This document shows, piece by piece, positions 31,201 to 57,735 of a stretch of 64,000 nt of DNA. A model generated the notes under the pieces. The model was not told the DNA's origin and ran no database searches. It saw only the letters and a program-made list of their open reading frames with translations. The stretch is from NCBI RefSeq assembly GCF_947495255.1, contig NZ_CANLYI010000005.1:124001-188000 (forward strand), given 5' to 3'. How positions within the stretch are numbered: the stretch's first letter is position 1; every line of letters starts with the position of its first letter. The stretch is from an uncultured Winogradskyella sp. GTDB lineage: Bacteria > Bacteroidota > Bacteroidia > Flavobacteriales > Flavobacteriaceae. Made by a program: the position numbers and the translations under genes.

Positions 31201-31230
31201 TATTTTTGGTTGACCAAACTGGTTAACCAA
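31201..31230 (+). promoter_or_regulatory. Operon A promoter with tandem TTGGTNNACCAA operators
   Basis: The -7 box TATTTTTG (31201-31208) runs into TTGGTTGACCAA (31206-31217) and CTGGTTAACCAA (31219-31230). The GGT of the two sites are 13 bases apart. A TTG at 31176-31178 is a possible -33. Repressor on the first site would cover the -7 box. The PL7 start codon is 18 bases downstream. Confidence 0.85.
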
Positions 31231-31247
31231 TTATAAATTTCCGTTTC

Positions 31248-32150
31248 ATGAAACGAATTTTAATATCACTTATTTGTGTAGGGATTTCTTTAGGATGCTC
31301 TAATCGCGATAATGAAGATGATATTGTTTTTGAAAACATAGAAAACCCTAATGACGATAATTTAGAAGTTTATGCTAATATAGATTTCTCTAATTGGAAA
31401 GTGACCTTGCCAGTTGATGAAAATAATAATGGTAGTCCTGATGAGTATCAACCATCAGAATTGATAAATGGTGCTTATAGAGCAAATACTTCTATTCAGC
31501 CTTATATGTATGATGATGTTGCAGATTCGTCAATAGAATTTTATACATTTCCAGATGTTTCAACTACAAATAGTTCTTATTCTAGAACAGAATTAAGAGA
31601 GTTAATAAATCCTGCTATTGCTAGAGAAAATTGGTCACTGGAAGAAGGAGGAACAATGACAGGACGATTAAAAATTGTCGATATCTCGGAAGATAATGTA
31701 AGTAGCAACAGACAATATCACAATACCATTGTGATGCAAATTCATGGTATTATTTCTTTAGAAGATATGGCAACTCACGGGTTTTCATCCAATAATGGAC
31801 CACCTCTAATAAAAATACGTTGGATTGATGGTTACATTTATTCTTACAAAAAATCACTTGTAGATGAAACTACAATTGGAGACGATTTATTAGAAACCTC
31901 AAGTGCCACTTGGGTTGATGCCTCAACAAATATGGGTTATGTTGGTTTTGATGAATTTGAATTTAGAATTACAGCATCAACCGGAAGATTAGAATTACAA
32001 TTAAACAGCGAAACACCTTTAGTTTACGAAGATGTAAGTATGAATAAATGGCCATTTGAAAATTATTTTAAAGCCGGAAATTATTTAGGCTCAACAGCAG
32101 AAGGCGCTTATTCTAAAGTAAAATATTATGAGCTTGAGGTCGTTCATTAA
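31248..32150 (+). CDS. PL7-family alginate lyase, surface lipoprotein
   Basis: This 300-residue protein has a lipoprotein signal (lipobox SLGC, Cys17) followed by the acidic SNRDNEDD, fitting a Bacteroidota surface-export signal. The PL7 jelly-roll (alginate lyase 2) spans about residues 44-300 with the three family motifs: SRTELRE at 112-118, QIH at 164-166 and YFKAGNY at 273-279. Those residues line the active cleft; QIH usually goes with guluronate-containing substrate preference. It would cut alginate at the cell surface by beta-elimination. It is first in operon A, 20 bases before the PL6 gene. Confidence 0.93.
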   Translation: MKRILISLICVGISLGCSNRDNEDDIVFENIENPNDDNLEVYANIDFSNWKVTLPVDENNNGSPDEYQPSELINGAYRANTSIQPYMYDDVADSSIEFYTFPDVSTTNSSYSRTELRELINPAIARENWSLEEGGTMTGRLKIVDISEDNVSSNRQYHNTIVMQIHGIISLEDMATHGFSSNNGPPLIKIRWIDGYIYSYKKSLVDETTIGDDLLETSSATWVDASTNMGYVGFDEFEFRITASTGRLELQLNSETPLVYEDVSMNKWPFENYFKAGNYLGSTAEGAYSKVKYYELEVVH

Positions 32151-32170
32151 ATAATTAAAAGAATAAATAA

Positions 32171-34510
32171 ATGAAGAAATATCTATTAGTTTTCGGTTTG
32201 TTATTATCGATTTTATCATGTGGAGAAAAAACTAATTCTAACACAAGTTCAAATCAATTAGTTTCTAACATCGACGAATTAGAAGAGGCAATTAAAAATG
32301 CTCAGCCTGGTGATGATATTGTATTAAAAAACGGTGTCTATAAAGACTTTGAAATTAAATTTAGAGGTAAAGGAACTGAAGATAAGCCTATAACTTTAAA
32401 GGCAGAAACGGCTGGTGAAGTTAGTATTGAAGGACAATCGTATTTAAAATTTGGAGGCGAATATCTCATTGCAGAAGGTTTGCATTTTAAAAATGGATAT
32501 TCACCATCTAGTGCAGTTGTAGATTTTAAAATAAGTCATAAAGATACCTTAGATGAGATAGCTAGTCATTGTAAATTAACCAATTCTGTTATCGAAGACT
32601 TTAACAAACCAAAACGTGATAAAAGCGATTTATGGGTTCAATTTTGGGGAAGACACAACGAGTTAAGTAACTGTTATATTGCAGGTAAAACAAATAGAGG
32701 TCCAACGGTAAGAGTAAGTATTGAAGGTGTTGAGAGTATTAATAATTACCACCAAATTGTAAATAACCATTTTGGTCCAAGACCTGTGAAAGGTGGCCCA
32801 AGTGGAGAAACCATTCAATTAGGAAATAGCTACACATCTATGTCTCCAAGTCATACAATGGTGGCAAACAATTTGTTTGAAGAATGTAATGGTGAAGTCG
32901 AAGTTATTTCAAGCAAAACAAATTTTAATGAGTTTAGAAACAATGTGTTTTATAAAAGTGAAGGTTCGCTTGTAACACGTCACGGAAATTATTCTATTAT
33001 AGATGGTAATTATTTTATTGGAGATGGCATTAACAAAAACGTTGGTGGAATCAGAATAATAAATACAGGACATTGGGTTACCAATAATTATTTCTATAAT
33101 CTAATAGGAACAAGTTTTAGAAGTCCTTTGGCTGTAATGAATGGAATTCCGAAATCACCATTAAACCGTTACAACCAAGTAACAGATGTTGTTGTTGCGT
33201 ACAATACTTATGTTAATTGTAGCTCACCTTGGCAATTTGGAGTAGGTACAAACATTACACAAGCAGATGTATTACCAAAATCTGAAATCCGTTCTGCAAG
33301 AGCAATAAGAACTACGGTAGCGAATAATGTTATTTACAATGAAAAAGGTTTAGAGCAAATTGTTGTAGAAAACGATAAAGCAGATGGTGTATTGTTTAAA
33401 AACAATGTTGTAGATAATAAAGGTTTAAAATTCCAGGATTTTGACGGCGGAATTATTTCGGCATCTTTAGAGTTGAAAAAGGTGTCTTATAATATATTTC
33501 TTCCAACAGGTATACCTAATGATGTGAAACCTTATTATGGGTTTGATTTTAATACTATTGAAAATGATTTATTTGGAAAAGCTAGAAAAGATAATAACAG
33601 TATTGGAGCGACTTTAGGTGTTGATGTTTCAAATCCAAATATCTTAGATAAATCTAAATATGGAACGTCTTGGTATTCTAACGTAGTTGCGTCGAAAGAA
33701 CCAACCATTCATGTTGTTAGTAAAACAGAAGAACTACAAACAAAAATAAACGAGGCCGTTAATGGAGATATTATAGCCATAGCAAAAGGCGCTTATAATA
33801 TAGGAAAACCTTTAGTGGTTAATAAAACTATTACAATTCAGTCACAAAGCGAAGAAAAAGCACACTTGGTTTATTCAGGCGCAGCAAATACACCACTATT
33901 TTCTTTAGAATCAAAAGGGAAGTTAACGATTAAAAATGTAGTTTTAAAAGGAAACAACAATACAAACTATGCTTTTGCTAGTTTAGATAAAAATATGTCT
34001 AACCATTTTGGGTTAATGGTTTCTAATGTTAAAATTAGTGATTTCAATTACGTGCTTAAAGTTTATAAAGAATCATTTTCAGAACGAATTACTTTTGAAA
34101 ATACGTCAATTTCAAACTGTGATAATGGTATAGAGTTATCGGAAGAAACTAATGATAAAGGCGATTACAATACTGAATATTTAACTATTAATAATTGTAA
34201 TTTTAATAATGTAAAAGCAAACGTGGTTGATTATTATAGAGGTGGTTATGATGAGTCTACAATTGGTGGAAACCTTTTAATTACAAATAGTGCGTTTACT
34301 AATTGTGGCGCAAATGAAAAAAATAGAAGGCTACTAAACCATAATGGAATTGTAAATGTGAATATTAATAACAATATATTTAAAGATAATAAGGTGCAAT
34401 TTGTTTCTATACTTTGGGGAGCAAAAAACAATGTAGAATCTGAAAACAACATAACAAATTCTGGCCAAATTAAAACAGAAGAAAACTTAGTGATGAAGTT
34501 GATGTATTAA
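32171..34510 (+). CDS. PL6-family alginate lyase, two-domain type
   Basis: This 779-residue lipoprotein (Cys17 after SILS) has two right-handed beta-helix domains. The N-terminal domain (about 30-440) is chondroitinase-B-like, with DELEEAIKNAQPGDDIVLKNGVY at its start and predicted catalytic Lys249 in VISSKT and Arg270 in LVTRHG. The second helix (about 510-779) begins with another EELQTKINEAVNGDIIAIAKGAY repeat. This layout and length match AlyGC-type PL6 exolytic or endolytic alginate lyases, many guluronate-preferring. It is the second gene of operon A and has a paralogue at 38911. Confidence 0.92.
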   Translation: MKKYLLVFGLLLSILSCGEKTNSNTSSNQLVSNIDELEEAIKNAQPGDDIVLKNGVYKDFEIKFRGKGTEDKPITLKAETAGEVSIEGQSYLKFGGEYLIAEGLHFKNGYSPSSAVVDFKISHKDTLDEIASHCKLTNSVIEDFNKPKRDKSDLWVQFWGRHNELSNCYIAGKTNRGPTVRVSIEGVESINNYHQIVNNHFGPRPVKGGPSGETIQLGNSYTSMSPSHTMVANNLFEECNGEVEVISSKTNFNEFRNNVFYKSEGSLVTRHGNYSIIDGNYFIGDGINKNVGGIRIINTGHWVTNNYFYNLIGTSFRSPLAVMNGIPKSPLNRYNQVTDVVVAYNTYVNCSSPWQFGVGTNITQADVLPKSEIRSARAIRTTVANNVIYNEKGLEQIVVENDKADGVLFKNNVVDNKGLKFQDFDGGIISASLELKKVSYNIFLPTGIPNDVKPYYGFDFNTIENDLFGKARKDNNSIGATLGVDVSNPNILDKSKYGTSWYSNVVASKEPTIHVVSKTEELQTKINEAVNGDIIAIAKGAYNIGKPLVVNKTITIQSQSEEKAHLVYSGAANTPLFSLESKGKLTIKNVVLKGNNNTNYAFASLDKNMSNHFGLMVSNVKISDFNYVLKVYKESFSERITFENTSISNCDNGIELSEETNDKGDYNTEYLTINNCNFNNVKANVVDYYRGGYDESTIGGNLLITNSAFTNCGANEKNRRLLNHNGIVNVNINNNIFKDNKVQFVSILWGAKNNVESENNITNSGQIKTEENLVMKLMY

Positions 34511-34540
34511 TTGCATTCTCATAAAAAAAATCAATTTAAC

Positions 34541-35584
34541 ATGAAAAAATCGATATTATCAATATTTACTCTTTTAGCAATTGTAGCCTGTAAAGACAAT
34601 ACAGAGACTACTTCTAAAGAAACTTCTGAAACAGAAAAGACTATTATTTATCCAAGTGATGTAATACCTTTTATGGACGAGTGGAAAATACTTTTGGGTG
34701 ATGGTACCTATAGTGATTCATTAGTAAATTACGCGAAAGATGATTTTTTCTATGTCGAAAATGATAATGATACCAATTGGGTCGTTTATAAAACACCAAA
34801 CTCAGGAGTCACTTCTCGTACATCAAGTAATACTAGAACCGAATTGGGTCAGAAAAATCATTGGATTCCTGAAGTGGGAGGAAAACTAACAGGTAGATTA
34901 AAGGTAAAACATGTATCTACGTCTGGTGATGCAAGAGTAGCGGCTTCGTATTCTGTTGTTGTTGGACAAATTCATAGTGATGAAGGTCATGAGAATGAAC
35001 CAATAAAGATATTTTACAAAAAATTTCCTGGCCATACTAAAGGTTCTGTGTTTTGGAACTATGAAATTAATACAGATGGCGACGATAACTCTAGCCGATG
35101 GGATTTTTCTACAGCGGTTTGGGGAAATGATATGTCAGTTGTAGGTGATAGTCCAAATACTTATCCAGAAGAACCAAAGGATGGTATTGCTTTAGGTGAA
35201 GAATTTAGTTACGAAATAAATGTATATAAAGGCATTATGTACCTTACTTTTAGAAGTGAAGGTCATGAAACTGTAAAATTCACAAAAAACTTATTGAAAT
35301 CAGACTTTGCAAGAAAAGAAGATATTCCTCAACAAATATGGTCATTATATGCTGCAATCGGACGCGATGGTGTTGAGCGCGATAGTGCTTATGCTGGCGA
35401 AATAAACTATTTTAAACAAGGTGCATATAACCAAACTAATGGTAAAAATCCAGAAGACAATATAGTGTGGTACACTGGTTCGGAAACATACAATGGAGAC
35501 ATTGCAAAACAATATGCAAACGGTTGTTATTCTGAGGTGTGGTTTAAAGAAGCTACTGTAGGAGAAGGAACAAATCCTAACTAA
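34541..35584 (+). CDS. PL7-family alginate lyase (divergent subfamily), lipoprotein
   Basis: I start at ATG 34541 (MKKSILSIFTLLAIVACKD, lipid Cys17), because the open frame upstream begins at a TTG directly after the PL6 stop and lacks a signal. The mature protein of about 330 residues carries PL7 motifs in a different context from the other two copies: NTRTEL at about 98-102, VVVGQIH at 139-145, and YFKQGAYNQ near the C-terminus. Insertions such as KIFYKKFPGHTKGSVFWNYE resemble the AlyA5-type branch of PL7, known for exolytic action; that assignment is inference. Third gene of operon A. Confidence 0.9.
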   Translation: MKKSILSIFTLLAIVACKDNTETTSKETSETEKTIIYPSDVIPFMDEWKILLGDGTYSDSLVNYAKDDFFYVENDNDTNWVVYKTPNSGVTSRTSSNTRTELGQKNHWIPEVGGKLTGRLKVKHVSTSGDARVAASYSVVVGQIHSDEGHENEPIKIFYKKFPGHTKGSVFWNYEINTDGDDNSSRWDFSTAVWGNDMSVVGDSPNTYPEEPKDGIALGEEFSYEINVYKGIMYLTFRSEGHETVKFTKNLLKSDFARKEDIPQQIWSLYAAIGRDGVERDSAYAGEINYFKQGAYNQTNGKNPEDNIVWYTGSETYNGDIAKQYANGCYSEVWFKEATVGEGTNPN

Positions 35585-35597
35585 AAACCTTAATACA

Positions 35598-37481
35598 TTG
35601 AAAAAAGTTATATATGTCATGGGAGTTTCAGGTTGCGGAAAAAGCACTATCGGAACTTTACTTGCTCAAGATTTAGGCATTCCTTTTTTTGATGGAGATG
35701 ATTTTCATCCTGAAAGTAACATCACAAAAATGTCTAGTGGTCAAGCCTTAAATGATGATGACAGACAAGGTTGGTTAGAGACTTTAAATGACTTGGCAAA
35801 GAAGCAGCTAGAAAATAATAGTTGTGTTATTGTATGTTCTGCTTTAAAGCAAAAATATCGAGATATATTAAGTGATACTATAGAAGACGATACAGAGTGG
35901 GTGCATTTAGTGGGTTCTTTCAATCAAATATTAGAAAGAGTAAATAGTAGAGCTGACCATTTTATGCCTTCAGAATTATTAAAGTCGCAATTTGATACTT
36001 TAGAAAATCCTGAGTGCGCTATTAAAATAGATATCAGTTTATCACCACAAGAGATTATTAAAAAGATAAAACAAGAACTAATGAATACCTCAGAATTTGG
36101 ATTATTTGGTTTAGGCGTAATGGGAAAAAGCCTATGTAGAAATTTGGCGAATAACGGTTTTAAAATTTCAATGTTTAATAGGCATGTGGATGGTGTAGAA
36201 GAAGATGTTGCTATAAATTTTAAAGCTCAATACCCTGAGTTATCTCGAGCGGAAGCGTTTGATGATATTTCGGCATTTGTAAATTCTTTGCAACAACCAA
36301 GACGCATTATGTTAATGGTGAATGCAGGTAAAACAATAGATTACGTTATTGAAGATTTGCTGCCTCATCTATCTGAAAATGATATCATAATAGACGGTGG
36401 AAATTCAAATTATAAGAAAACTAAAGAACGTTACGATTATTTAAAGACTAAAGGGATTCATTTTATTGGAACAGGAGTTTCTGGAGGAGAAGAAGGGGCT
36501 CTAAAAGGGCCATCTATTATGCCAAGCGGAGATATCGATGCTTATAATAAGGTAGCTCCTTTTTTAGAAACTATTTCTGCAAAAGACAAAAATGGTTTGC
36601 CTTGTTGTACATATGTTGGTCCAGAAGGAAGTGGGCAATTTATAAAAATGGTACATAATGGAGTAGAATATGTAGAAATGCAATTGTTAGCTGAGGTGTC
36701 TACTATTTTAGAAACTTTAGGTCAAAATCCTGATGAGGTATCTCAAACTTTACAATCTTGGAAGGACATAGCAGATAGTTATTTGTTAGAAATAACGACT
36801 GCTATTTTTAAGAAGAAAGAAGGAGACGATTGGTTAGTAAATAAAGTTTTAGATAAAGCGGGTAATAAGGGTACAGGAAACTGGACGGCCATTTCATCTG
36901 CAGAACTTGGAGTGCCTAGTACATTAATTGCTTCCGCTTTATTTTCAAGATATATTTCGTTTTATAAAGAAGAGCGAATCCAATTAAATGAAAAATTTCA
37001 AACTAAAACGACTTCAGAATTAAATATTACAACCAATGACGTTTTAGAAGCTTATCAATTTGCAAGAATTATCAATCATTATCAAGGCTTTAAATTAATT
37101 GCGGAAGCTTCAAATAAATTCGAATGGGATTTAAATCTTAGTGAAATTGCTCGAATTTGGACAAATGGTTGCATTATAAGATCAACCTTAATGGAAGAAT
37201 TGGTAGAAGTATTTAAACATACAACTAATATATTAACTAACCCTAAATTAATTGATTTAGTTAATACCTATAAACCAGCTGCAAAAAAGGTAGTTTCTCA
37301 AAGTATTCTTAATGATGTTGCAACACCAGCTTTGAGTGAAGCAATTCAATTTTTAAACGGAATAACAACGGCATATGCTTCGGCAAATGTAATCCAAGCA
37401 CAACGTGATTATTTTGGAGCACATACGTATCTCAGATTAGATGATGCTTCAGGAAAGAGTCATCACACTGACTGGAACTAA
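35598..37481 (+). CDS. Gluconokinase fused to NADP 6-phosphogluconate dehydrogenase
   Basis: A single 627-codon frame with no stop encodes two enzymes. Residues about 1-160 are GntK: P-loop GVSGCGKST (9-17), FFDGDDFHPESNITKMSSGQAL and the DxxxRQGWL segment. Residues about 165-627 are Gnd: FGLGVMGKSLCRNLA (167-184), IMLMVNAGKTID, GTGVSGGEEGALKGPSIMPSG, catalytic Lys350, Asn354 and Glu357 in FIKMVHNGVEY, and QAQRDYFGAHTY near the end. The junction has almost no linker and keeps Met162 where a stand-alone Gnd would start. The TTG start is required to keep the first beta strand. Expected reactions: gluconate to 6-phosphogluconate to ribulose-5-phosphate plus CO2 and NADPH. Confidence 0.92.
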   Translation: MKKVIYVMGVSGCGKSTIGTLLAQDLGIPFFDGDDFHPESNITKMSSGQALNDDDRQGWLETLNDLAKKQLENNSCVIVCSALKQKYRDILSDTIEDDTEWVHLVGSFNQILERVNSRADHFMPSELLKSQFDTLENPECAIKIDISLSPQEIIKKIKQELMNTSEFGLFGLGVMGKSLCRNLANNGFKISMFNRHVDGVEEDVAINFKAQYPELSRAEAFDDISAFVNSLQQPRRIMLMVNAGKTIDYVIEDLLPHLSENDIIIDGGNSNYKKTKERYDYLKTKGIHFIGTGVSGGEEGALKGPSIMPSGDIDAYNKVAPFLETISAKDKNGLPCCTYVGPEGSGQFIKMVHNGVEYVEMQLLAEVSTILETLGQNPDEVSQTLQSWKDIADSYLLEITTAIFKKKEGDDWLVNKVLDKAGNKGTGNWTAISSAELGVPSTLIASALFSRYISFYKEERIQLNEKFQTKTTSELNITTNDVLEAYQFARIINHYQGFKLIAEASNKFEWDLNLSEIARIWTNGCIIRSTLMEELVEVFKHTTNILTNPKLIDLVNTYKPAAKKVVSQSILNDVATPALSEAIQFLNGITTAYASANVIQAQRDYFGAHTYLRLDDASGKSHHTDWN

Positions 37482-37517
37482 TACCAAAAACTAACTAACC
37501 AAAAACGAACTCATATT

Positions 37518-38792
37518 ATGGATGCAACAACACCTAACAAATCATTTTTTAAAAAAATAATTGCCATAATATTAGGGTTTGGACCTGGTATTTTTGCGAT
37601 TGGTTACACCATAGGTACAGGTAGTGTTACTTCAATGATTGTCGCAGGAAGTAAGTTTAACATGCAATTATTATGGGTATTACTTTTAAGTTGTTTGTTT
37701 TCTGGAGTATTAATGTTTGCTTATGGTAATTATGGATTAATTACAGGTGAAACAGCGCTCTTTGGTTTTAAAAAACATTTAAAATTTGGTAAAGCTTTAG
37801 CTATATTAATTATCGTTGGTATTACTTTTGGACAGTGGAATTCTTTGATGGGAATTTTAGGTATTTCTTCTAATATTATTTATGAAATTTTGGCCATAAA
37901 CTTTGAAGGTCTAGCCAGTCATAAGTATGAGACTGTTTTAATTACAGCCATTATAATTATTGTTGTTTTTTACTTATTAATGCTAGTCGGTAAGTATACG
38001 TTTTTCGAAAAAATATTGGTCATTTTTGTAACATTAATGGGTTTGTCTTTTGTATTGTCATTATGTTTTGTGCAACCGCTGCCAATAGATGTTGTTAAAG
38101 GATTGATACCATCTATTCCGGATGTGCCAGGAGGAAAAATGTTGGTTGCTGCATTTGTTGGTACCACAATGGCTTCCGCTACTTTTTTGTCTAGACCATT
38201 GTTTGTAAAAGGAAAAGGGTGGACAATTAAAAACTTAGACCAACAGAAACGGGATTCTATAACAGCCGCAATTTTAATATTTATTATTAGTGCTGTGATT
38301 ATGGCAGTAGCTGCAGGTGCCTTGTATTATGAAGGTAAAGAAGTTACTCAGGTATTAGATATGGCAAATACATTAGAGCCAGTTGCTGGGAAATGGGCTG
38401 TAACGATATTCTTTTTTGGCGCTTTAAGCGCAGGTTTATCGTCTATTTTTCCTTGTTTATTAATTGCGCCATTATTGATTGCAGATTACCAATCTGGCGA
38501 ATTAGATACCAATTCTAAGCAATTTAGAATTATTACTGCAATTGCTTGTTTAGTGGCTTTAATTGGTCCTGCTTTTGGAGCCAACCCAATTGAGATTCAA
38601 ATTCTTTCTCAAGTCTTTAATGTTTTCGTTTTACCTATTGTAATTCTTGGTATTATATTAATGGTTAATAATAAGAAGATTATGAAAGGCTATAAAACAA
38701 GTCTTTTTGTGAATATTGGATTGTATGCATCGCTTCTTTTTGCATGTATTATTTCTTACAATGGAATTATTGCATTGACTGAATATTTCTAA
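37518..38792 (+). CDS. Nramp-related membrane transporter lacking the canonical metal site
   Basis: This 424-residue protein has about eleven membrane segments with the Nramp (LeuT-fold) pattern. Segment 1 reads FGPGIFAIGYTIGTGSVTSM: where metal transporters have DPGN, this has GPGI. In the segment-6 region, TTMASATFLSR stands where MPH is expected. The Asp and Asn that bind Mn/Fe are therefore absent, though the fold signatures (GxxxxxxIGTGSVT) remain. Family databases would call it a divalent metal transporter; I think another cargo is likely. It is the last gene of operon A, right after the gluconokinase/Gnd fusion, which hints at a sugar acid or related compound, but this is context only. 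Confidence 0.75.
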   Translation: MDATTPNKSFFKKIIAIILGFGPGIFAIGYTIGTGSVTSMIVAGSKFNMQLLWVLLLSCLFSGVLMFAYGNYGLITGETALFGFKKHLKFGKALAILIIVGITFGQWNSLMGILGISSNIIYEILAINFEGLASHKYETVLITAIIIIVVFYLLMLVGKYTFFEKILVIFVTLMGLSFVLSLCFVQPLPIDVVKGLIPSIPDVPGGKMLVAAFVGTTMASATFLSRPLFVKGKGWTIKNLDQQKRDSITAAILIFIISAVIMAVAAGALYYEGKEVTQVLDMANTLEPVAGKWAVTIFFFGALSAGLSSIFPCLLIAPLLIADYQSGELDTNSKQFRIITAIACLVALIGPAFGANPIEIQILSQVFNVFVLPIVILGIILMVNNKKIMKGYKTSLFVNIGLYASLLFACIISYNGIIALTEYF

Positions 38793-38851
38793 AGACATTT
38801 TGCTGTTTGTGGGTAAAATAATACAGTTTTGAGTTAAAAGTGCATATATCT

Positions 38852-38903
38852 TTTGGTTAAATTCAAAATTCACGTATATTGGTAAACCAATCTGGTAAAC
38901 CAG
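38852..38903 (+). promoter_or_regulatory. Operon B promoter with tandem TTGGTNNACCAA operators
   Basis: TTTG (38852-38855), 19 bases, then TATATTGG (38875-38882, one change from TAnnTTTG). TTGGTAAACCAA (38879-38890) and CTGGTAAACCAG (38892-38903) follow at the 13-base pitch. The second site ends only 7 bases before the ATG at 38911, so the leader is very short and bound repressor would also cover the start of the message. Confidence 0.87.
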
Positions 38904-38910
38904 TTTTTAT

Positions 38911-41256: not shown

Positions 41257-41258
41257 AT

Positions 41259-43535
41259 ATGACAAATACTAAAAATTTCATATTAAAATTTGCTTTAGTC
41301 GCAATTGTATTCACTGTGTTTTCTTGTAAAAAAGAAGACACAGCTGTTGCAGATAATAGCGAATCTGCAATTACTCAAGAACACCCAAAACTGATATTAA
41401 CAGCTCAAGGTGTAAAAGATATTAGAGCGCAATTGGGTAATATTCCAATTTTTGATAAGTCTTTGCAAGCCGTAAAAGAAGAAATTGACGCTGAGATTGA
41501 ATTAGGAATAGAAGTGCCAATCCCAAAAGATTATTCTGGTGGATACACACACGTAAGACATAAACGTAATTGGTTTGTGTTGCAAAAAGCTGGTCTTTTA
41601 TATCAAATTTTAGATGACGAAAAATATGCGAAGTATGTAAAAGACATGTTGATGGAATATGAGGCACTGTATAAAACGTTGCCATTACACCCAAAAACGA
41701 GATCTTATGCTAGAGGGAAATTATTCTGGCAATGTTTAAACGATTCTAACTGGTTGGTTTATGTAAGTCAGGCTTACGATTGTATCTACGATTATTTAAC
41801 GGAAGAGGAACGCAACAAGCTAGAAACAAATTTATTTAAACCTTTTGCAAATCATATTTCAATAGACAGTCCTCAGTTTTACCAAAGAGTACACAACCAT
41901 AGTACTTGGGGAAATGCAGCTGTTGGGATGATTGGTTTAGTAATGAATGATGAAGAGTTAATTGATCGTGCATTATATGGAATTAAAGATTTAAAATTAG
42001 ATACAAATGAAAAAGATGATGATGGTGGTTATTTAAATAAAGACGGAAAAGCTGGTTTTTTAGCGAATATAGAAGAACCTTTTTCTCCGGATGGTTACTA
42101 TAATGAAGGACCATATTACCAACGTTATGCGATGTATCCTTTTCTAATTTTTGCAGAAGGCTTACAAAATGTAAAGCCAGAATTAAAAATATTTGAATAT
42201 AAAGAAGGTGTGCTTTTAAAATCTATAAATGCATTACTAAATTTATCTGATGCAGATGGTGATTTCTTCCCGCTAAACGATGGTCAAAAAGGAATGTCTT
42301 ACTACAATAGCGCCTTAGTAACTGCTGTAGATATTTCATACCACTATGGAGGTCAGGATGCTGGTTTATTAAGTATTGCAAAAGAACAAGATCAAGTTTT
42401 GTTAGATGATTCTGGTTTAGCTGTTGCACTTGGTATTAAAAATGGAAGTGAAGAGCCTTTCCGAAAAGAATCTATTAATTTATCTGACGGACCAGAAGGA
42501 AAACAAGGTGGTGTTGGTATTTTGCGAAATGAAGGTATGGAGCTTGTTTTTAAATATGCTTCACAAGGATCTAGCCATGGACATTACGATAAACTATCGT
42601 ATTCATTATATGAAAATGGCGAAGAGATTTTACAAGATTATGGTTTAGCACGTTTTGTAAATATTGAACAAAAAGGAGGTGGTAATTACCTAAAGGAAAA
42701 TAAAACTTGGGCAAAACAGACCATTGCACATAATACGGTAACACAAAATGAAACCTCTCATTATAATGGTAAATATGAAATAGGAAGTCAAAATCACCCA
42801 GACTTGCATTATTTCTCTACAGATAATGATAATGTTCAAGTGATTAGTGCAAAAGTTAATAACACATACATTGGTACAGATATGCTTCGTACTATGGCTG
42901 TAATAAAAGATGAAGATTTCGAAAAACCATATATACTAGATGTAATGAAGGTTAGTTCTATTTCTGCTAATCAGTATGATTTTCCATTTTACTATTTTGG
43001 ACAAGTATTAGAAACTAATTTCGACTATTCAACACCACAAACTTTAAAGCCATTAGGAACTAAAAATGGTTACCAACATTTGTTTGTTGAAGGTTCTGCA
43101 AAAGCTAATAATGATAACTCTAAATTCTCTTGGTTAAACAATAACAAGTTTTATACGTTGACAACCGTAACTAGTGATAAAGATGAATTGTTGTTTACCA
43201 GAATTGGCGCTAATGATCCTGATTTTAACTTAAGAAGAGATCCTTCTTTACTTTTAAGAAGAAAAGACTCAAAAAACACAACTTTTGTTTCTGTAATTGA
43301 AGCGCACGGTAGTTATAGTCCTGTTTCAGAATCTGCACTAAATTCTAATAGCAATATTAAGGAGTTAAAAGTTATTTTAGACACTAAAGATTATACGGCA
43401 ATTGTAATAACAACAATAAGCGGTAAGGAAAAATTATTCATAACTTCAAATGCAAATGCTTCTTTAGAAGCTACACATAACTTAAAAATTAACGATAAAG
43501 ACTACCAGTTTAAGGGTTCTTATTATTTTAAATAA
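41259..43535 (+). CDS. PL17-family oligoalginate lyase
   Basis: This 758-residue lipoprotein (Cys23 in FSCKKED) has an N-terminal (alpha/alpha) barrel and C-terminal heparinase II/III-like beta-sheet domain. VHNHSTWGNAAVG holds Asn213-His214, and FSPDGYYNEGPYYQRYA (about 276-291) holds the catalytic Tyr, as in Alg17c. The C-terminal domain has GSSHGHYDKLSYSLYENG and AHNTVTQNE with metal-site residues. The family is exolytic and releases unsaturated uronate monomers from oligomers, usually in the periplasm. It is tightly coupled to PL6 upstream and KdgF downstream. Confidence 0.95.
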   Translation: MTNTKNFILKFALVAIVFTVFSCKKEDTAVADNSESAITQEHPKLILTAQGVKDIRAQLGNIPIFDKSLQAVKEEIDAEIELGIEVPIPKDYSGGYTHVRHKRNWFVLQKAGLLYQILDDEKYAKYVKDMLMEYEALYKTLPLHPKTRSYARGKLFWQCLNDSNWLVYVSQAYDCIYDYLTEEERNKLETNLFKPFANHISIDSPQFYQRVHNHSTWGNAAVGMIGLVMNDEELIDRALYGIKDLKLDTNEKDDDGGYLNKDGKAGFLANIEEPFSPDGYYNEGPYYQRYAMYPFLIFAEGLQNVKPELKIFEYKEGVLLKSINALLNLSDADGDFFPLNDGQKGMSYYNSALVTAVDISYHYGGQDAGLLSIAKEQDQVLLDDSGLAVALGIKNGSEEPFRKESINLSDGPEGKQGGVGILRNEGMELVFKYASQGSSHGHYDKLSYSLYENGEEILQDYGLARFVNIEQKGGGNYLKENKTWAKQTIAHNTVTQNETSHYNGKYEIGSQNHPDLHYFSTDNDNVQVISAKVNNTYIGTDMLRTMAVIKDEDFEKPYILDVMKVSSISANQYDFPFYYFGQVLETNFDYSTPQTLKPLGTKNGYQHLFVEGSAKANNDNSKFSWLNNNKFYTLTTVTSDKDELLFTRIGANDPDFNLRRDPSLLLRRKDSKNTTFVSVIEAHGSYSPVSESALNSNSNIKELKVILDTKDYTAIVITTISGKEKLFITSNANASLEATHNLKINDKDYQFKGSYYFK

Positions 43536-43554
43536 AACAAATAAATTAAAAATT

Positions 43555-43932
43555 ATGAAAAGATTTAGCGAAAAGTACATTGTTACAAAAGATATGGAAT
43601 GGGAAGTTCTTGGAGGAGGAGTCTCAAGAAAATTCTTAGGTTACGATAACCAAATCATGATGGTAAGAGTAAAATTTGACGAAGGCGCATTAGGTGCACC
43701 ACATCAACATTTTCATACGCAAGCTACCTATTGTGTTTCAGGTAAATTTGAGTTCGAAATTGATGGAGTAAAACAAATAGTTGAAGCAGGAGATGGTGTG
43801 TATATTGAGCCTAACTTATTACATAGTGCAATTTGCTTAGAAGAAGGAGAGTTGATAGATACATTTAGTCCAGTACGAGAAGATTTCTTAACAGGAGAAG
43901 GACCATCTTATTTTGGAGATAAAGAATCTTAG
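43555..43932 (+). CDS. kdgF: KdgF-type cupin, unsaturated uronate ring-opening protein
   Basis: This 125-residue single cupin has His50, His52, His54 and Gln56 in PHQHFHTQATY, and His90 in PNLLHSA, matching the KdgF metal-binding set. KdgF speeds conversion of 4,5-unsaturated uronate to the linear keto form (4-deoxy-L-erythro-5-hexoseulose uronate, DEH). There is no signal peptide, so it acts in the cytoplasm, implying that unsaturated monomer is imported too. It is the last gene of operon B. A short GACAA/TTGTC hairpin with a T stretch at 43933-43955 could end the transcript, weakly supported. Confidence 0.93.
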   Translation: MKRFSEKYIVTKDMEWEVLGGGVSRKFLGYDNQIMMVRVKFDEGALGAPHQHFHTQATYCVSGKFEFEIDGVKQIVEAGDGVYIEPNLLHSAICLEEGELIDTFSPVREDFLTGEGPSYFGDKES

Positions 43933-44080
43933 GACAAATCTTCTTGTCTTGATTTTTAGAGCTTTATAAAATAGCGAGATATTTCTATACTACAATTCAT
44001 ATAGATGCTATTTTAACTTAAACATTCACTATTTTAACATAGATAATTTACGAAAACGATGTATTTAACAAAATTTTATA

Positions 44081-44123
44081 TATATTTGGTCAACCAAACT
44101 GGTTTACCAATTTGGTTGACCAG
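44081..44123 (+). promoter_or_regulatory. Operon C promoter with three TTGGTNNACCAA operators
   Basis: The -7 box TATATTTG (44081-44088) overlaps TTGGTCAACCAA (44086-44097), then CTGGTTTACCAA (44099-44110) and TTGGTTGACCAG (44112-44123). All GGT triplets are spaced 13 bases. No clear -33 TTTG was found. The leader from about 44095 to ATG 44225 is about 130 bases, AT-rich, with a weak TTAGG...TACTAAC pairing. The whole 292-base gap after kdgF holds no gene. Confidence 0.88.
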
Positions 44124-44224
44124 TAAATTATCTCGAAGCAATCTCCTGTTAGGTAGTGTTAAGCGACAATTTACTAACTAATAAATAAACTAATAATAAA
44201 ACAATCTAATCTAAACAATGAATT

Positions 44225-47200
44225 ATGAATTTAAAAATTAAACTCATTACAGTTGTTACACTACTCTTTAGTGTGATGATTTTTGCTCAAGAGGCTTATA
44301 CTATAAAAGGTACGGTCACTTCAGCAGTTGACAACATGCCCATTCCGGGTGCAAATATTATTGTTGTTACAACAACTAGAGGTACTTCTACGGATTTTGA
44401 TGGAAATTTCCAATTAGAGGTGGCTAAAGGAGAATCTGTTCAAATTTCTTATATTGGATATGTTTCTCAGACTATTGTAATTGATGGTCAGACAACCTTA
44501 AATATCTCACTAGCAGAAGATGATAATTCTTTAAGTGAAGTTGTTGTTGTAGGATATGGTACACGTAAAAAATCACATCTTACTGGAGCTATTTCTAAGG
44601 TAGGTGGGGATGATGTTGCAGCAGTGCAGGTAACACGTGTTGATGATGCATTAGCAGGTAAATTATCTGGTGTATTAATTCAGAACCAAAACGGTTCGCC
44701 AGGTGCAGCTCCAAAAATTCAAATTAGAGCAGCTTCATCAATTTCAAGTGCATCTAATCCTTTAATTGTTGTAGATGGTTATCCTATCTCTGGAGGTTTA
44801 GAAACAGTTAACCCAAATGATATTGAAAGTTTAGAAATTTTAAAGGATGCTGCTTCAGCTGCAATTTATGGCTCTAGAGGTGCGAACGGTGTTGTGTTAA
44901 TTACAACTAAGAAAGGAAAATCCGGTAAAGCAAGTTTTAGTTATAATGCTTATACAAGTTTTTCTAGTAAGTATCGTGATAATATATTAAAGTCAGGTCC
45001 AGAGTGGGCTGCGCATTCAAGAGAGCAAATTGCTGCGGGTAATTGGTCAGGAACAGTTGATAATGTTGATCCAGCTTTTCTTGAGTATAGATTAAGTGCT
45101 TATGAAAATTCACCAGGAGCAATTAGTCCTGAAGATTGGCTTTTTAGAAATGGTAGTACAACAAGTCATGATTTTAGTATGAGCGGAGGAACTGATGATG
45201 TTAATTATTTTGCATCAGTAGGTTACCAAAATACAGACGGTATAATCATAACTGAAGGTTTTGAAAGACTTAACGCACGTTTAAATGTAGATGCTAAATT
45301 GGGAGATAAATTTAAGACTGGTGTTAGTTTCAATGGCTTTACATCAGATAGAGATATTTTAGGTCACGATATGAGAGATTTACTAAGATCTTATGGTGTT
45401 CACCCTGTTTATCATACAGCAGAGTCTATTGCGTTTGTTCAGGGGTTAGACGCTCAGGCTCAAGCTTTAGGATTAGAGGCTTTTGACGATGGTTACAGAG
45501 GGTCTACTTATGAAGCCAATAGTATTTATGCATTAGAGCCTGGTATGGCTGCGCAAGACTGGCATTACGGAAGAAATAATAATGGTATTGGTGGGTCTGG
45601 AGATGCAGGTCCTGCTGCTAAGCTTGATAATACGGAACGTTGGGAAAAAACGTTTTTCGGAAATGTAAGTTCTTATTTGCAGTATAGCATTATTGACGGA
45701 TTAAATATTAAAACCGTACTAGGTGGTGATTTAAAAGATACGCAATATTATGAGCATAGATTACTTGGTTATGATTCTAGAGCGAGAACAAATCAAACTT
45801 ATATGGATCAAACGGACTTAAAGGTATGGTCTGTGTTAAGTGAAACGACATTAAGTTATGCAAAAGTAATTGGTAAGCATGATATCTCAGCAGTTGCTGG
45901 TATAGAATTTCAAACTACAAAATTTGTAGGAACTGGTTTAGATGGTGTTAATGTACCAGATGAAGATATTCTTAATTATAACTTATTTGATCCAGCGGAT
46001 ATTACAGTTACAGAGAGAAAAGAGACTAGAGCTAGAGAAAGTGTTTTTGGTAGAATAAACTACGCGTATGATGATAAATATTTAGCCTCAGTATCTATAA
46101 GGAGAGATGGTGATTCTCGCTTTGGTGCAAATAAGAAATATGCTACTTTCCCTGCGCTTTCATTAGGGTGGAATGTACATAATGAATCTTTCATGGAAGA
46201 TAATGACGTACTAAGTAAATTAAAATTAAGATTTAGTACAGGTTCTTTAGGAACGGCTTCTTTCTTAGGGTCATATGATGCTTTGAGTCTTTTGGATCCA
46301 TCAGCAACTTATTATGGAACAGGTTATTTAATTCCAGAAAATGTAGCTAATCCAGATTTAACATGGCAAACAAATACAGAGACAAACTATGGTGTTGATT
46401 TCGGATTTTTAAATAATAGATTTACCTTAGGTATAGATTATTATACATCTGATATTGAGGATATTTTAATTAATCAAAGTATTTCTGAAGTTTTCGGTAC
46501 GTCATCAATTGTGCTTAACTCTGGAGATGTTAGAAGTTCCGGATGGGAATTTGAGTTAAACGCTAGAGTAATTAGTAATGATGATTTTTCTTGGAGTTTT
46601 AATGCTAACTTATCTACAGTTGAAACTGAAATTACAGACTTAGGTGGTTTAGATGAATTACCTCAGGCTATTTATGGGCAAAGTGGTAGAGGTCCTGTTT
46701 TTAGAAACTATGTAGGTGGAGGTATTGGTGAAATGTGGGGTCTAGAAACTATCGGCGAAGTTGAAATGGAATATTTAGCTGATGGAACTAGGCATCCTAA
46801 TAATCAATCTGGAGAATCTTACGTTGTAGATCAAAATGGTGATGGTGTAATTGATAATACTAAATCTGTTGCTGATGGTGGTGATTTAGTTAAAATTGGA
46901 CAAAATACACCGGATTTTTACTGGGGAATGTCACATAATTTTAGTTATAAAGATTTTGATATGTCTTTACAATTTCAAGGGTCTCATGGAGCAGAGGTTT
47001 ATAATATAGATCCACTTTATTATGGTTCGCAATGGGGAGGACGTTTAGTGAGTAGTTTTGATGCTGATGACAATGGTATTGCTGATCATAATGGAGAGCA
47101 TTATACAGCGAGCAGAAATCAAACAGATGCTATGATTCAAGATGCTTCATTTATCGCTTTAAGAAATATAACACTAGGTTATACTTTAAAATCTGAATGG

Positions 47201-47407
47201 GTAGATAAGATTGGTTTAAGTTCTGTTAGAGCATATGTTGCTGCATCGAACTTATTATATATAATGGCAGATAATTATACATCATATAACCCAGAGGGTG
47301 TTGCAACGTCAGGTGGTGATTATTTAGGGCCAACTACATATGGAGCGCAAGTTGGTGCGAGTCCAGTTGTAAGAAGTTTTACACTAGGTTTAAATGTTAA
47401 TTTTTAA
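44225..47407 (+). CDS. SusC-type TonB-dependent oligosaccharide receptor (first copy)
   Basis: This 1060-residue outer-membrane protein has a signal peptide (ending FAQ), a CarboxypepD_reg domain (about 24-100: IKGTVTSAVDNMPIPGANI...DFDGNFQL), a TonB-box-like stretch (SEVVVVGYGTRKK), plug domain with IEILKDAASAAIYGSRGANGV, and a beta-barrel ending in FTLGLNVNF (terminal Phe). It would import alginate oligomers with the SusD lipoprotein at 47418. The first ~130 residues are very close to those of the second SusC at 49097, the rest less so. A 7-codon out-of-phase ATG at 44218 overlaps its start. Confidence 0.96.
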   Translation: MNLKIKLITVVTLLFSVMIFAQEAYTIKGTVTSAVDNMPIPGANIIVVTTTRGTSTDFDGNFQLEVAKGESVQISYIGYVSQTIVIDGQTTLNISLAEDDNSLSEVVVVGYGTRKKSHLTGAISKVGGDDVAAVQVTRVDDALAGKLSGVLIQNQNGSPGAAPKIQIRAASSISSASNPLIVVDGYPISGGLETVNPNDIESLEILKDAASAAIYGSRGANGVVLITTKKGKSGKASFSYNAYTSFSSKYRDNILKSGPEWAAHSREQIAAGNWSGTVDNVDPAFLEYRLSAYENSPGAISPEDWLFRNGSTTSHDFSMSGGTDDVNYFASVGYQNTDGIIITEGFERLNARLNVDAKLGDKFKTGVSFNGFTSDRDILGHDMRDLLRSYGVHPVYHTAESIAFVQGLDAQAQALGLEAFDDGYRGSTYEANSIYALEPGMAAQDWHYGRNNNGIGGSGDAGPAAKLDNTERWEKTFFGNVSSYLQYSIIDGLNIKTVLGGDLKDTQYYEHRLLGYDSRARTNQTYMDQTDLKVWSVLSETTLSYAKVIGKHDISAVAGIEFQTTKFVGTGLDGVNVPDEDILNYNLFDPADITVTERKETRARESVFGRINYAYDDKYLASVSIRRDGDSRFGANKKYATFPALSLGWNVHNESFMEDNDVLSKLKLRFSTGSLGTASFLGSYDALSLLDPSATYYGTGYLIPENVANPDLTWQTNTETNYGVDFGFLNNRFTLGIDYYTSDIEDILINQSISEVFGTSSIVLNSGDVRSSGWEFELNARVISNDDFSWSFNANLSTVETEITDLGGLDELPQAIYGQSGRGPVFRNYVGGGIGEMWGLETIGEVEMEYLADGTRHPNNQSGESYVVDQNGDGVIDNTKSVADGGDLVKIGQNTPDFYWGMSHNFSYKDFDMSLQFQGSHGAEVYNIDPLYYGSQWGGRLVSSFDADDNGIADHNGEHYTASRNQTDAMIQDASFIALRNITLGYTLKSEWVDKIGLSSVRAYVAASNLLYIMADNYTSYNPEGVATSGGDYLGPTTYGAQVGASPVVRSFTLGLNVNF

Positions 47408-47417
47408 ATAAAAAAAA

Positions 47418-48755
47418 ATGAAAAAAATATATATATTATTAGGATCGTTATTCTTAATAACTTCTTGTTCTACGGATTTGGATCAATCCCCAAGTAATAT
47501 TGCGAGTGCGGATTCTTTAACGGATTTTGAAGGTGTATTAAATGCTGCATATTATTATCAACTAGGTACTGTTACACCTTTGGCTGTAATGGGGGAATTT
47601 AGATCAGATAATGCTTTGATGGAAGAAGCACCATATACAGAGTTTGATGAATATGATAATGGCTTAACAGCAATGGAAGATCAGTTTTTTGGCCCTTTTT
47701 ATACGGCTGCTTATAAATCAATTTTAAGTGCTAACAATGTAATTGAAAATTCTTCAGACGATACTGAGATTGGCGAGGCTAAATTTTTAAGAGCTTTAAC
47801 TTATTTTAAATTGGTTAAAGTTTTTGGAGATGTTACTGTTAATCTATTGGCTTCACCTAGTTTAACTGATACGTCGGTTTTAGTTAGGCGTTCAGCTTCT
47901 GATGTTTACAATGATGTTATTATACCCGATTTAACTGATGCAATGGCAGTTTTAAGTACAACTATTAATGATGGTAGAGCATCTAAGTATGCTGCACAAG
48001 CTCTATTAGGTAAGGTTTATGTAACTATGGGTAATTTTGCCAGTGCAGAACCGCACTTAGCGGCTGTTGTAAATGGTGCTGCAGGAGCAGGGATCATGTT
48101 AAACGCAAATTATAATGAGATTTTTGGTGCTGCTAATGAGATAGAGAATTCTGAAATCATTTTTTCTACGCAAATTACGGGTTCTATAGTTGATGAATAT
48201 ACTTTTGGATCTGATTTTTGGAATTGGTTTGTTGGAGATGATCCAAAAGCAAATTACCCTGTTTCTACAAGTTTAGTAGCAGCATTTGATGCAAGTGATG
48301 CGTCTGGTGGTGGAACTGATTTAAGAAGAGCGGTAACCCTTGCTGATGATGGATTAACGGCTATAAAATTCCCAAAAGAAGGGGGGCAAGGAACAGAGCA
48401 TGATTGGATTGAAATTCGTTTAGCGGATGTTATTCTTTTATATGCAGAAACTTTAAATGAAAATGGTTCACCAGCATCAACGGTGTTGCCATTATTAGAT
48501 GACATTAGAACTAGAGCAGGATTGAATAGTTTAACGGGTACTGTGACTTCTCAAGCAGATGTAAGACAAGTAATTGCTGATGAAAGAAGACTTGAGTTAG
48601 CTTTTGAAGGGCATAGATGGTTCGATTTAGTGAGAACAGGAACTGCTAGTGCAGAAATGGGTGAAACGATTAATAGTAATTATTATGTATTCCCAGTTCC
48701 AATATCTGAAATTTTAGCTACTCGTGGAGTAATTACTCAAAATACAGGTTATTAA
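47418..48755 (+). CDS. SusD/RagB-family glycan-binding lipoprotein (first copy)
   Basis: This 445-residue lipoprotein (lipid Cys17 in LITSC, then STDLDQSP) has the SusD TPR-like helices: AKFLRALTYFKLVKVFGDV (about 122-140) and ADVILLYAETLNENGS, DERRLELAFEGHRWFDLVRTG near the C-terminus, then NYYVFPVPISEI, all family hallmarks. It caps the SusC at 44225 and presents alginate oligomers. Start is 10 bases after the SusC stop. A terminator follows at 48826, so the pair forms its own unit. Confidence 0.95.
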   Translation: MKKIYILLGSLFLITSCSTDLDQSPSNIASADSLTDFEGVLNAAYYYQLGTVTPLAVMGEFRSDNALMEEAPYTEFDEYDNGLTAMEDQFFGPFYTAAYKSILSANNVIENSSDDTEIGEAKFLRALTYFKLVKVFGDVTVNLLASPSLTDTSVLVRRSASDVYNDVIIPDLTDAMAVLSTTINDGRASKYAAQALLGKVYVTMGNFASAEPHLAAVVNGAAGAGIMLNANYNEIFGAANEIENSEIIFSTQITGSIVDEYTFGSDFWNWFVGDDPKANYPVSTSLVAAFDASDASGGGTDLRRAVTLADDGLTAIKFPKEGGQGTEHDWIEIRLADVILLYAETLNENGSPASTVLPLLDDIRTRAGLNSLTGTVTSQADVRQVIADERRLELAFEGHRWFDLVRTGTASAEMGETINSNYYVFPVPISEILATRGVITQNTGY

Positions 48756-48825
48756 TATAGATTTTTCTTTGATAACTTTTTTATGTAATATCCTTTTAAA
48801 AAGTTAATTCAATAGAATTAAAAAT

Positions 48826-48871
48826 AAAAATTACCTTATTATGGATTTATTCCTTTTAAGGTAATTTTTTT
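48826..48871 (+). terminator. Terminator after the first SusCD pair
   Basis: A 13-bp stem AAAAATTACCTTA (48826-48838) pairs with TAAGGTAATTTTT (48857-48869), followed by more T. The 18-base loop is AT-rich. Confidence 0.75.
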
Positions 48872-48986
48872 GTTGAAATTTATGTGATTGTAATATTATC
48901 AAGTATAATATTTTCTGTAATTATTATTGAATTTTGTAGTCAAGAATTATTGGTTTAGAGTTAGGTCTTCTTAAAGTCAAAATAAC

Positions 48987-49039
48987 TTTGAATTAACAAA
49001 AAAATAACATATATTTGGTAAACCAATCTGGTAAACCAA
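48987..49039 (+). promoter_or_regulatory. Operon D promoter with tandem TTGGTNNACCAA operators
   Basis: TTTG (48987-48990), exactly 19 bases, TATATTTG (49010-49017): a full Bacteroidota promoter. TTGGTAAACCAA (49015-49026) and CTGGTAAACCAA (49028-49039) overlap and follow the -7 box at the 13-base pitch. The rest of the 314-base gap after the first SusD has only the terminator at 48826. Confidence 0.9.
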
Positions 49040-49096
49040 TTATAATTTATTCATACAACAGTTGTATTCATGCAACCCACTAAATTAAATTTAATG

Positions 49097-52000: not shown

Positions 52001-52213
52001 TATAGTTTCCCTGAAGATTTAACAAGTAAATTAAAGATTTCGAAATTACGTATTTATGCATCTGGTCAGAACCTAATGTATAAGACAGCAGATGGATACA
52101 CAGGTTGGAATCCAGAAGCCTTAGATAAAACGAGTCCTACTCAATATGGATACCAACGAGGTGGATCTCCAATTTATAGAACAATATCTTTAGGGTTAGA
52201 CCTAGATTTTTAA
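49097..52213 (+). CDS. SusC-type TonB-dependent receptor (second copy)
   Basis: I start at ATG 49097 (MNLKIKLATIFTLF), one codon after another ATG at 49094, because it aligns with the first SusC start; the frame is open from 49070. About 1038 residues: CarboxypepD_reg domain, SEVVVIGYGTQKK, plug with FEILKDAASASIYGSKGSNGI, and beta-barrel ending ISLGLDLDF. The N-terminal 130 residues are nearly a repeat of the first SusC, while the barrel loops differ, suggesting duplication followed by change in oligomer preference. Operator-controlled at 48987-49039. Confidence 0.95.
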   Translation: MNLKIKLATIFTLFCVIVIFAQEKYVLSGTVMSAVDKMPIPGANIIILKTTRGTSTDFDGNYQLDVVKGDVLQFSYIGYVTQTIIVDSQKTVNISLVESDNSLSEVVVIGYGTQKKSHTTGAISKVVNDDLGQIAVSRVDDALVGQVSGVNIQATDGEAGAAPTITIRGVGSMAGDSTPLIVVDGVIVDSDFLGSLNMNDVESFEILKDAASASIYGSKGSNGIIMITMKSGIEGKTRISYNTYTGFKEARKSDAYGYTTKEWAEQQMEENGELSIYTQAQLQTGTDRSWQDVFFDGGAITSHSLSFRGGNKSTKYTASLNYSNDEGVLLNDNYSKYGARLKVDNKINDKFSIGVNFTPSYTVRDRFAESIHNVARHQPWLPIYHDEYTLQMVDPSFGLQVGDYARQDHFTIFDFNGDGVFDEELQNLGNSTNQNPYARASERSRMDKKFKLFGSVNGKYKITDGLNFTTTISGSIQDTKRTDYLGTLARRISTEAYMVETNQKEQYYIFDNFLNYNKVFGKHEIGVTLGNSIETRDYFFSTIKGIGFENDVVQQISGATSIISDETFGFEWQKRGISYISRLTYAYDDKYLMSLSLRRDGSSIFGSDYKYGNFSAASLGWNIHKEKFLEDSDFVSLLKLRASYGVTGNDRLNTGSVNPDAQGSTSVLSSDNVLQDYYPHLSLLDLTTYVVDGTITTGYSPLNLANPELKWERLIEINPGIDFGFLNNKITGSIDWYQRTSDQLLLNNPVSATTGFNSALVNLGEVKNQGFEFEIRTRNINKEKFSWQSTLIATTNENTLVNFADSNGQITSIDPSRPAEWINQEGQPISSFYGYVVESEVPVEYRDRPYRHVGAEFGWVKVKDLNGDGVLDADDKTILGNPYPELIWSFSNDFKIGNLDFSVMFQGSHGAEVRNIGDHYLFSHNNNRTLNDAASEAGYGNEFLVDKYLTNSIIQDASYIALRNVNIGYSFPEDLTSKLKISKLRIYASGQNLMYKTADGYTGWNPEALDKTSPTQYGYQRGGSPIYRTISLGLDLDF

Positions 52214-52244
52214 AAATAAAATATAATACTTAATACAATATATC

Positions 52245-53687: not shown

Positions 53688-53711
53688 AATATAATTTTAA
53701 AACATAAAAAA

Positions 53712-54590: not shown

Positions 54591-54607
54591 TTAGTAAAAC
54601 TAATAAT

Positions 54608-57704: not shown

Positions 57705-57735
57705 AACACAAATACTAACATAAATATAGATTAAA

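Follow-up and report, generated by a model that had tools for sequence, protein, structure and literature searches.

Short palindromes recur at a distance of 13 bp in front of four operons of an alginate polysaccharide utilization locus in an uncultured Winogradskyella sp., which raises the question of which protein reads them and why they are repeated. The locus lies within a stretch of 64,000 nucleotides of contig NZ_CANLYI010000005.1 (the window, meaning the whole stretch analysed; the home genome is 4.21 Mb). Alginate is a major brown-algal polysaccharide. It is very probable that the arrays are AusR-type operators and that their putative repressor is the product of a gene at 55665..56366 on the forward strand, an AusR-like GntR/FCD regulator. 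The sites, their pitch, their register on the promoter, their copy number and their co-occurrence with the regulator gene are read from sequence; from these features we infer binding, repression, an effector and cooperativity.

The first-pass annotation had described four arrays whose first site overlaps a -7 box, and both the layout and the overlap were borne out. TTGGTNNACCAA occurs exactly at 31206, 38879, 44086 and 49015, and a second copy follows 13 bp further on in each array (31219, 38892, 44099 and 49028), with a third copy only at 44112. The nine copies, arranged in three pairs (31206, 38879 and 49015) and one triple (44086), all contain an exact core TGGTNNACCA (9/9), and the downstream copies differ from TTGGTNNACCAA at the outermost bases only (CTGGT.. 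/ ..ACCAG). The tandem core pattern had 0 occurrences in 300 mononucleotide shuffles of the window, and TTGGTNNACCAA with up to two mismatches gives 65 matches window-wide compared with 40.3 +/- 6.0 in shuffles. Other matches to TGGTNNACCA in the window (3148, 6299, 41052 and 48464) are single copies, each within an open reading frame (ORF).

Each array is associated with a promoter element on the forward strand. TAnnTTTG is described as the Bacteroidetes -7 consensus, Flavobacterium johnsoniae included (PMC7366714), and this element meets the first site at 31201-31208, 44081-44088 and 49010-49017, where its last two bases are part of the first TGGT in three of the four arrays. The array at 31201..31230 combines the -7 box TATTTTTG (31201-31208) with a double operator (31206-31217, 31219-31230) and lies 5' of the PL7-PL6-PL7-(gluconokinase/6-phosphogluconate dehydrogenase)-Nramp operon. 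The array at 38875..38903, 5' of PL6-PL17-cupin, has a -7 box that is one base shorter, TATATTGG at 38875-38882, followed by a double operator (38879-38890, 38892-38903). The box TATATTTG occurs twice: at 44081-44088 with the triple operator (44086, 44099, 44112; whole array 44081..44123), 5' of SusC1-SusD1, and at 49010-49017 with a double operator (49015, 49028; whole array 49010..49039), 5' of SusC2-SusD2-PKD-PL7.

The register on the -7 box is shared by relatives. From 338 confirmed stretches the best 80 regulator loci were analysed (1.58 Mb in total, under 27 genus or lineage labels and with 76-88% identity), with gene labels taken from the best BLASTP match to the window proteins and with unlabelled ORFs shorter than 150 aa ignored. 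All 110 multi-copy arrays in these loci (110/110) lie outside ORFs, and all 29 intragenic matches are single copies. When six arrays without an ORF within 350 bp are excluded, TAnnTTTG starts exactly 6 bases before the first TGGT in 94/104 intergenic multi-copy arrays, and the same register is found in 98/110 arrays when the window and two home-genome loci are added. It is kept in 74/75 SusC arrays, the window's two included, and the one-base-shorter variant seen at 38879 recurs in 8/11 PL17 arrays of relatives. This fixed register supports the earlier proposal that the arrays may act by promoter occlusion.

The pitch is rigid. The 80 loci contain 277 exact sites, and pairs up to 80 bp apart number 94 at 13 bp, 14 at 26 bp and 1 at 39 bp, with none at any other distance in that range; the control ACCANNTGGT yields 33 sites and zero pairs. 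Pairs of an exact and a one-mismatch site also peak at 13 (48) and 26 bp (8), with at most 2 at every other distance, and of the 95 sites that lack an exact neighbour, 20 have a degraded copy at -13 and 19 one at +13, compared with at most 5 at the other listed offsets within 45. Among 397 genomes of the family, pitches of 14-40 bp gave 52 pairs, 36 of them at 26 bp and the other 16 over 12 pitches. Because the reversed control gave 38 matches spread across the same 27 pitches (our own count of rows), the 16 scattered pairs do not exceed chance, and the 36 at 26 bp exceed it by far. The middle copy is degraded (1-3 mismatches) in 16/36 of the 26-bp pairs. An array of at least two copies is present in 76/80 loci if the extension tolerates up to two mismatches and in 58/80 with exact copies only; three of the four loci without a multi-copy array are on contigs shorter than 10 kb, and L073 is not. 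The 13-bp pitch is common to arrays before SusC, PL17, PL7, PL6, MFS and carbohydrate-binding module (CBM)-like genes. With a helical repeat of 10.4-10.6 bp, neighbouring sites are rotated by 82-90 degrees at a pitch of 13 bp and by 163-180 degrees at 26 bp. Double arrays usually have ATC at the junction (42/72), and T stands immediately before copy 1 in all of them (72/72). This 3-base junction, as seen in L044-L123 and the home genome, is asymmetric: one of the two inner flanking bases differs from the consensus of the outer flank. The first-pass annotation had called the pitch unusual. It is real, but precedents exist in the tandem assembly of NanR, in the extra half-sites of GntR proteins and in the published double and triple AusR operators. 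Literature searches on AusR and flavobacterial alginate operators, and on GntR tandem operators, found no description of a 13-bp pitch within a reach that did not extend to the original AusR paper.

The number of copies differs between gene classes. In the 80 loci, the counts of one, two and three copies are 0/35/25 for SusC2, 0/3/10 for SusC1, 0/11/0 for PL17 and 38/4/0 for the AusR gene, which has its own site in 41/80 loci. A rule that SusC operons carry two or three copies and the regulator's own gene usually one is suggested by these site counts and is possibly new. In 30/38 of the AusR-gene single sites a TAnnTTTR element starts 19-20 bases upstream, so that the site stands 3' of that element and not on it. 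In triples the middle copy is best kept, being exact in 34/37 compared with 23 for copy 1 and 13 for copy 3. In two distant relatives of the regulator (53 and 54% identity; G094 C42:80498 and G297 C24:36185) the array 5' of the regulator gene itself is triple and lies 65 and 29 bp ahead of the matched region, unlike the usual single site.

The arrays track the regulator across the family. In the 397 genomes, where the regulator was called at E <= 1e-40, the exact tandem is present in 98 (73/237 genera), the regulator in 103 and both together in 97, and the reversed-pattern control gave 0 in every genome. All six genomes with the regulator only (6/6) carry the tandem with one mismatch, five of them in the form of TGGAAAACCA-like copies. 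In G019, G132, G207, G213 and G225 the regulator is present and the arrays consist mainly of TGGAAAACCA-like copies, not exact TGGTNNACCA. The single genome with the tandem only, G154, has no regulator homologue at E <= 1e-5, and its match (L014:1500-1525) falls, by our reading of the frame, within the coding sequence of a SusC-like N-terminus. The coding sequence of the SusC N-terminal motif V-V-D-Q-S-G-x-P can mimic the tandem operator and is a trap for genome-wide scans; a match of similar sequence in G099 may be an artefact of the same kind. A further sample of 295 genomes spanned the class and included nine of the same family, counting the home genome; three of the 295 have the tandem, namely the home genome, G320 (a family member with the regulator) and G480. 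The last is the one match outside the family, and its array lies about 0.3 kb from a regulator of 58% identity.

In the whole home genome the tandem with up to two mismatches gives 9 matches compared with 1 for the reversed control: the five in-window pairs of the four arrays, C5:188487, C3:109591, C6:304804 and C2:249729. The last, a two-mismatch tandem within an 867-aa ORF, was discounted, and three arrays are left outside the window. C5:188487, about 490 bp past the window end, lies 5' of a protein secreted by the type IX secretion system (T9SS) with a CBM-like fold. C3:109591 and C6:304804 (one mismatch) lie 5' of two secreted proteins read as PL6 lyases; they match Chondroitinas_B, a Pfam model that also matches the PL6 lyases. 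The longest ORF at C6 overlaps the array, and its likely start is read as just 3' of the array; the TATATTTG box there reads as standing a few bases 5' of the array, unfused. A spread of the tandem upstream of unrelated genes was looked for and not seen, since all seven home arrays (7/7) precede alginate-type genes or the CBM-like secreted protein. The regulon is larger than the 11 genes first counted: by ORF gaps, the four window operons hold 14 genes (5+3+2+4). A wider home regulon of fused single-operator promoters was rejected. TANNTTTGGTNNACCA has 6 exact matches, 4 of which are known arrays, and searches of this type with up to one mismatch were near the control (43 and 41 vs 33 and 51); single TTGGTNNACCAA sites, at 23 genome-wide vs 17 for the control, carry little information.

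The protein behind C5:188487 is a 324-aa T9SS-secreted protein (G000 C5:188597-189571, L010:2597-3571) that stands behind an array here and in 6/80 of the relatives' loci. Of its homologues, 8/30 match CBM_4_9 (best E 4e-6), and the beta-sandwich proteins that its predicted model matches include CBM4 and CBM16 modules. It is a candidate for a new alginate-binding protein.

The 55665 protein is encoded inside the polysaccharide utilization locus, together with PL7, PL6, PL17, SusC/D, cupin, MFS and SDR genes. It scores above the cut-off for both PF00392 (GntR helix-turn-helix) and PF07729 (FCD), and a Pfam FCD search of the home genome, which covered FCD proteins among the GntR proteins, found it as the sole match. 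Its presence in 97/98 tandem genomes and this FCD result support the earlier assignment of the protein as the likely binder. FCD is the GntR subfamily that we take to be AusR's. The alignment of 36 proteins shows invariant H155, H200 and H222. Such residues are expected where an FCD pocket binds a metal and accommodates a small acid, and they fit an effector like 2-keto-3-deoxygluconate (KDG) or 4-deoxy-L-erythro-5-hexoseulose uronate (DEH). The predicted model of the regulator is moderate (predicted local distance difference test, 74.7) and served fold recognition only; its top Foldseek matches include NanR and a DhdR-DNA complex. The first-pass annotation had read the palindrome as that of ExuR/UxuR. 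The 2-nt centre is indeed of the UxuR type, but the protein lies far below both NCBIfam models, with 68 bits against a cut-off of 442 for UxuR and 60 bits against 396 for ExuR, and its LldR, NanR and PdhR scores are also far below cut-off; on these scores ExuR and UxuR were rejected as the regulator. The UxuR centre is given as 2 nt and the ExuR centre as 3 nt (PMC4494728). In the 80 loci, TGGTN2ACCA occurs 277 times compared with 30-55 for eight other spacings counted, and the ExuR-type TGGTN3ACCA, with 35, is at background. An alternative dimer register, ACCANNNTGGT, occurs 154 times compared with 25-63 for other spacings of that order; 94 of these occurrences are within exact 13-bp pairs, and TGGTNNACCA was therefore taken as the basic unit.

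A closely similar system has been described. In Zobellia galactanivorans DsijT, AusR (Dudek et al. 2020) is reported as a GntR repressor with single, double and triple operators (PMC7874173, PMC8286568), which represses most alginate genes and is relieved by alginate breakdown intermediates (PMC7874173, PMC8286568, PMC8073546). An AusR regulon with multiple operators is, in these accounts, already published for Zobellia, and the present locus shares its regulator family, alginate polysaccharide utilization locus, gene set and multi-copy operators; by site pattern, putative operators are found here in single, double and triple copy at alginate promoters. It differs in that it belongs to another species, that the home genome has seven arrays and that the window regulator gene has no site of its own.

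These features point to the following mechanism. As is usual in the GntR family, one dimer of the 55665 protein would bind each TGGTNNACCA palindrome. Copy 1 overlaps the sigma -7 element TATATTTGGT, so that a dimer bound there would block RNA polymerase. Copies 2 and 3 would extend 3' across the expected start, one base being left free between the 12-bp palindromes. Successive dimers would be turned by about 86 degrees round the helix, and the extra copies would add repression strength, probably by dimer-dimer contact. The putative repressor would be released by a product of alginate breakdown (DEH, KDG or an oligosaccharide). The number of copies may act as a dial, set to two or three for SusC/SusD, mostly two for lyase operons and usually one for the regulator's gene.

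Cooperative contact between dimers is likely by analogy, and cooperative stacking is favoured because the cooperative assembly of NanR and the GntR half-sites 7-12 nt from the centre are precedents. Three dimers of E. coli NanR are reported to assemble cooperatively side by side on (GGTATA)3, and an insertion of 6 nt weakens binding (PMC8012715). NanR is a GntR/FCD repressor, as the protein here is proposed to be, and by site geometry the strict 13-bp lattice would fit a similar assembly on close tandem sites of constrained spacing. However, the sites of NanR are direct repeats and those here are palindromes. An N-terminal extension of 32 residues is held responsible for the cooperativity of NanR (PMC8012715), and the arm that precedes the GntR domain here is shorter. 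In 23 GntR groups a weak extra half-site is described 7-12 nt from the palindrome centre (PMC4494728). Here the near half-site of the neighbour is centred 10 bp away, but it belongs to a complete palindrome that recurs at a single exact pitch. The palindrome type is that of UxuR and ExuR of the FadR subfamily, with a 2-nt centre as in UxuR (PMC4494728). BusR, likewise of the GntR family, recognises two sites at a set distance from each other, but it is described as a preformed tetramer with an RCK_C and not an FCD domain, and its sites are 22 bp apart on the same helix face (PMC8517857). Tentatively, AusR dimers could form a short right-angle spiral that starts from the -7 box and advances by 13 bp and about 86 degrees with each dimer, in which the contact would be unlike the long N-terminal arm of NanR and the number of steps would set repression per gene; such stacking may be general and overlooked in FadR-type regulators. 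If this is true, the extra half-sites of the GntR family would have reached their full development in the lattice.

Several observations weigh against the assignment or its cooperative step. The regulator-only genomes have 3-8 tandem matches each with up to two mismatches, compared with 0-3 for the control. The Fisher p of 4e-84 for co-occurrence of tandem and regulator overstates the significance, since the species are related and the counts are not independent. The canonical register is missing in 10/104 of the relatives' arrays and in three of the seven home arrays (38879, C3 and, by our reading, C6). TGGTNNACCA is absent from the 148-bp gap 5' of the window regulator gene, the AusR-gene single site is absent in 39/80 loci, and the eight loci closest to the window (L044-L051) also lack it. 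The label AusR is based on the gene content, the protein family and the architecture of the operators, not on the Zobellia AusR sequence; Zobellia is outside the 80 loci, in which Maribacter and Cellulophaga are included. The N-terminal arm of the regulator (residues 1-14) has a mean conservation of 0.62 compared with 0.91 for residues 15-78, the GntR domain starting at residue 15, and this poor conservation may speak against a cooperative step, despite well conserved residues 1-4 (residues 5-14 are mostly variable). In any case, 12-bp palindromes with one base between them cannot be packed more closely than at 13 bp.

This last point leads to a rather unlikely alternative, namely that dimers bind AusR operators independently, extra copies raise local occupancy, and the pitch, as the minimum for non-overlapping sites, is inherited or arose from a 13-bp duplication. 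Alginate loci are reported to be largely vertically inherited (PMC12323373), and many doubles have copies with the same AA centre, both of which agree with such an origin. However, only multiples of 13 are found up to 80 bp across 27 genus or lineage labels, the same pitch is found before diverse gene classes, and the 26-bp register is held where the middle copy has decayed. In addition, the junction bases are unlike the outer flank, which simple duplication would not produce.

Some FCD regulators activate from upstream sites. By that precedent AusR may both repress and activate, with some copies helping polymerase and the array acting as a switch, but this is improbable, since in 94/104 arrays the first copy is on the -7 box and the rest lie 3', positions expected to block, and published AusR is described as a repressor (PMC8073546). 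A still less probable account makes another regulator the main binder, for example the LacI-family protein at 58558-59577. Its gene is within the locus, and LacI proteins are given as 8/29 of the regulators in alginate clusters (PMC7874173). However, the divergent promoter region of the LacI gene itself carries two palindromes of another type (core TTAATCGATTAA), TGGTNNACCA agrees with the consensus of the FadR subfamily (PMC4494728), and tandem presence tracks the GntR/FCD gene. A chance or non-regulatory tandem repeat, of which G154 offers a coding coincidence in a SusC-like gene and G099 a match similar in sequence, is practically negligible, given the reversed control of 0 in all family genomes, the lack of any multi-copy array within an ORF in the 80 loci and the fixed register.

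The genes behind the putative AusR operators, all on the forward strand, form four operons whose limits are inferred from ORF gaps. Operon 1 (31248..38792; gaps of up to 36 bp) encodes PL7, PL6 and PL7, followed by a gluconokinase/6-phosphogluconate dehydrogenase fusion (35598-37481) and an Nramp-type metal transporter (37518-38792), the last two with no obvious alginate role. Operon 2 (38911..43932) encodes PL6, PL17 (heparinase II/III-type and alginate lyase domains) and a cupin that may fulfil the role of KdgF. Operon 3 (44225..48755) comprises SusC/SusD pair 1, and operon 4 (49070..55516) comprises pair 2, a PKD protein and PL7. An MFS transporter and an SDR dehydrogenase (56391..58500, forward strand) lie 3' of the regulator, and the dehydrogenase is a candidate DEH reductase by its place in the pathway. 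The perfect palindromes with the TTAATCGATTAA core (59589-59610 and 59670-59689) are situated between the divergent LacI gene and a KDG kinase operon that starts at 59726, and the 12-bp core recurs in 13/80 of the relatives' loci. This suggests that catabolism of KDG and its 6-phosphate (KDPG) may be under a LacI-type regulator, apart from the GntR arrays. A second LacI-family helix-turn-helix protein (62698-63213) has just 171 aa, slightly more than 40% of full-length models, and is shortened or broken.

The family-wide rigid lattice and its promoter register, as they appear in these genomes, are possibly new. One repressor family appears to gate alginate digestion in about one quarter of the sampled Flavobacteriaceae (103/397). 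The exact 13-bp tandem is a clean genome marker for the AusR regulon and points to unannotated members, such as the CBM-like secreted protein. The lattice, with its rigid pitch, its overlap with the -7 box and its gradation between gene classes, provides a directly testable system for relating GntR/FCD packing to promoter strength.

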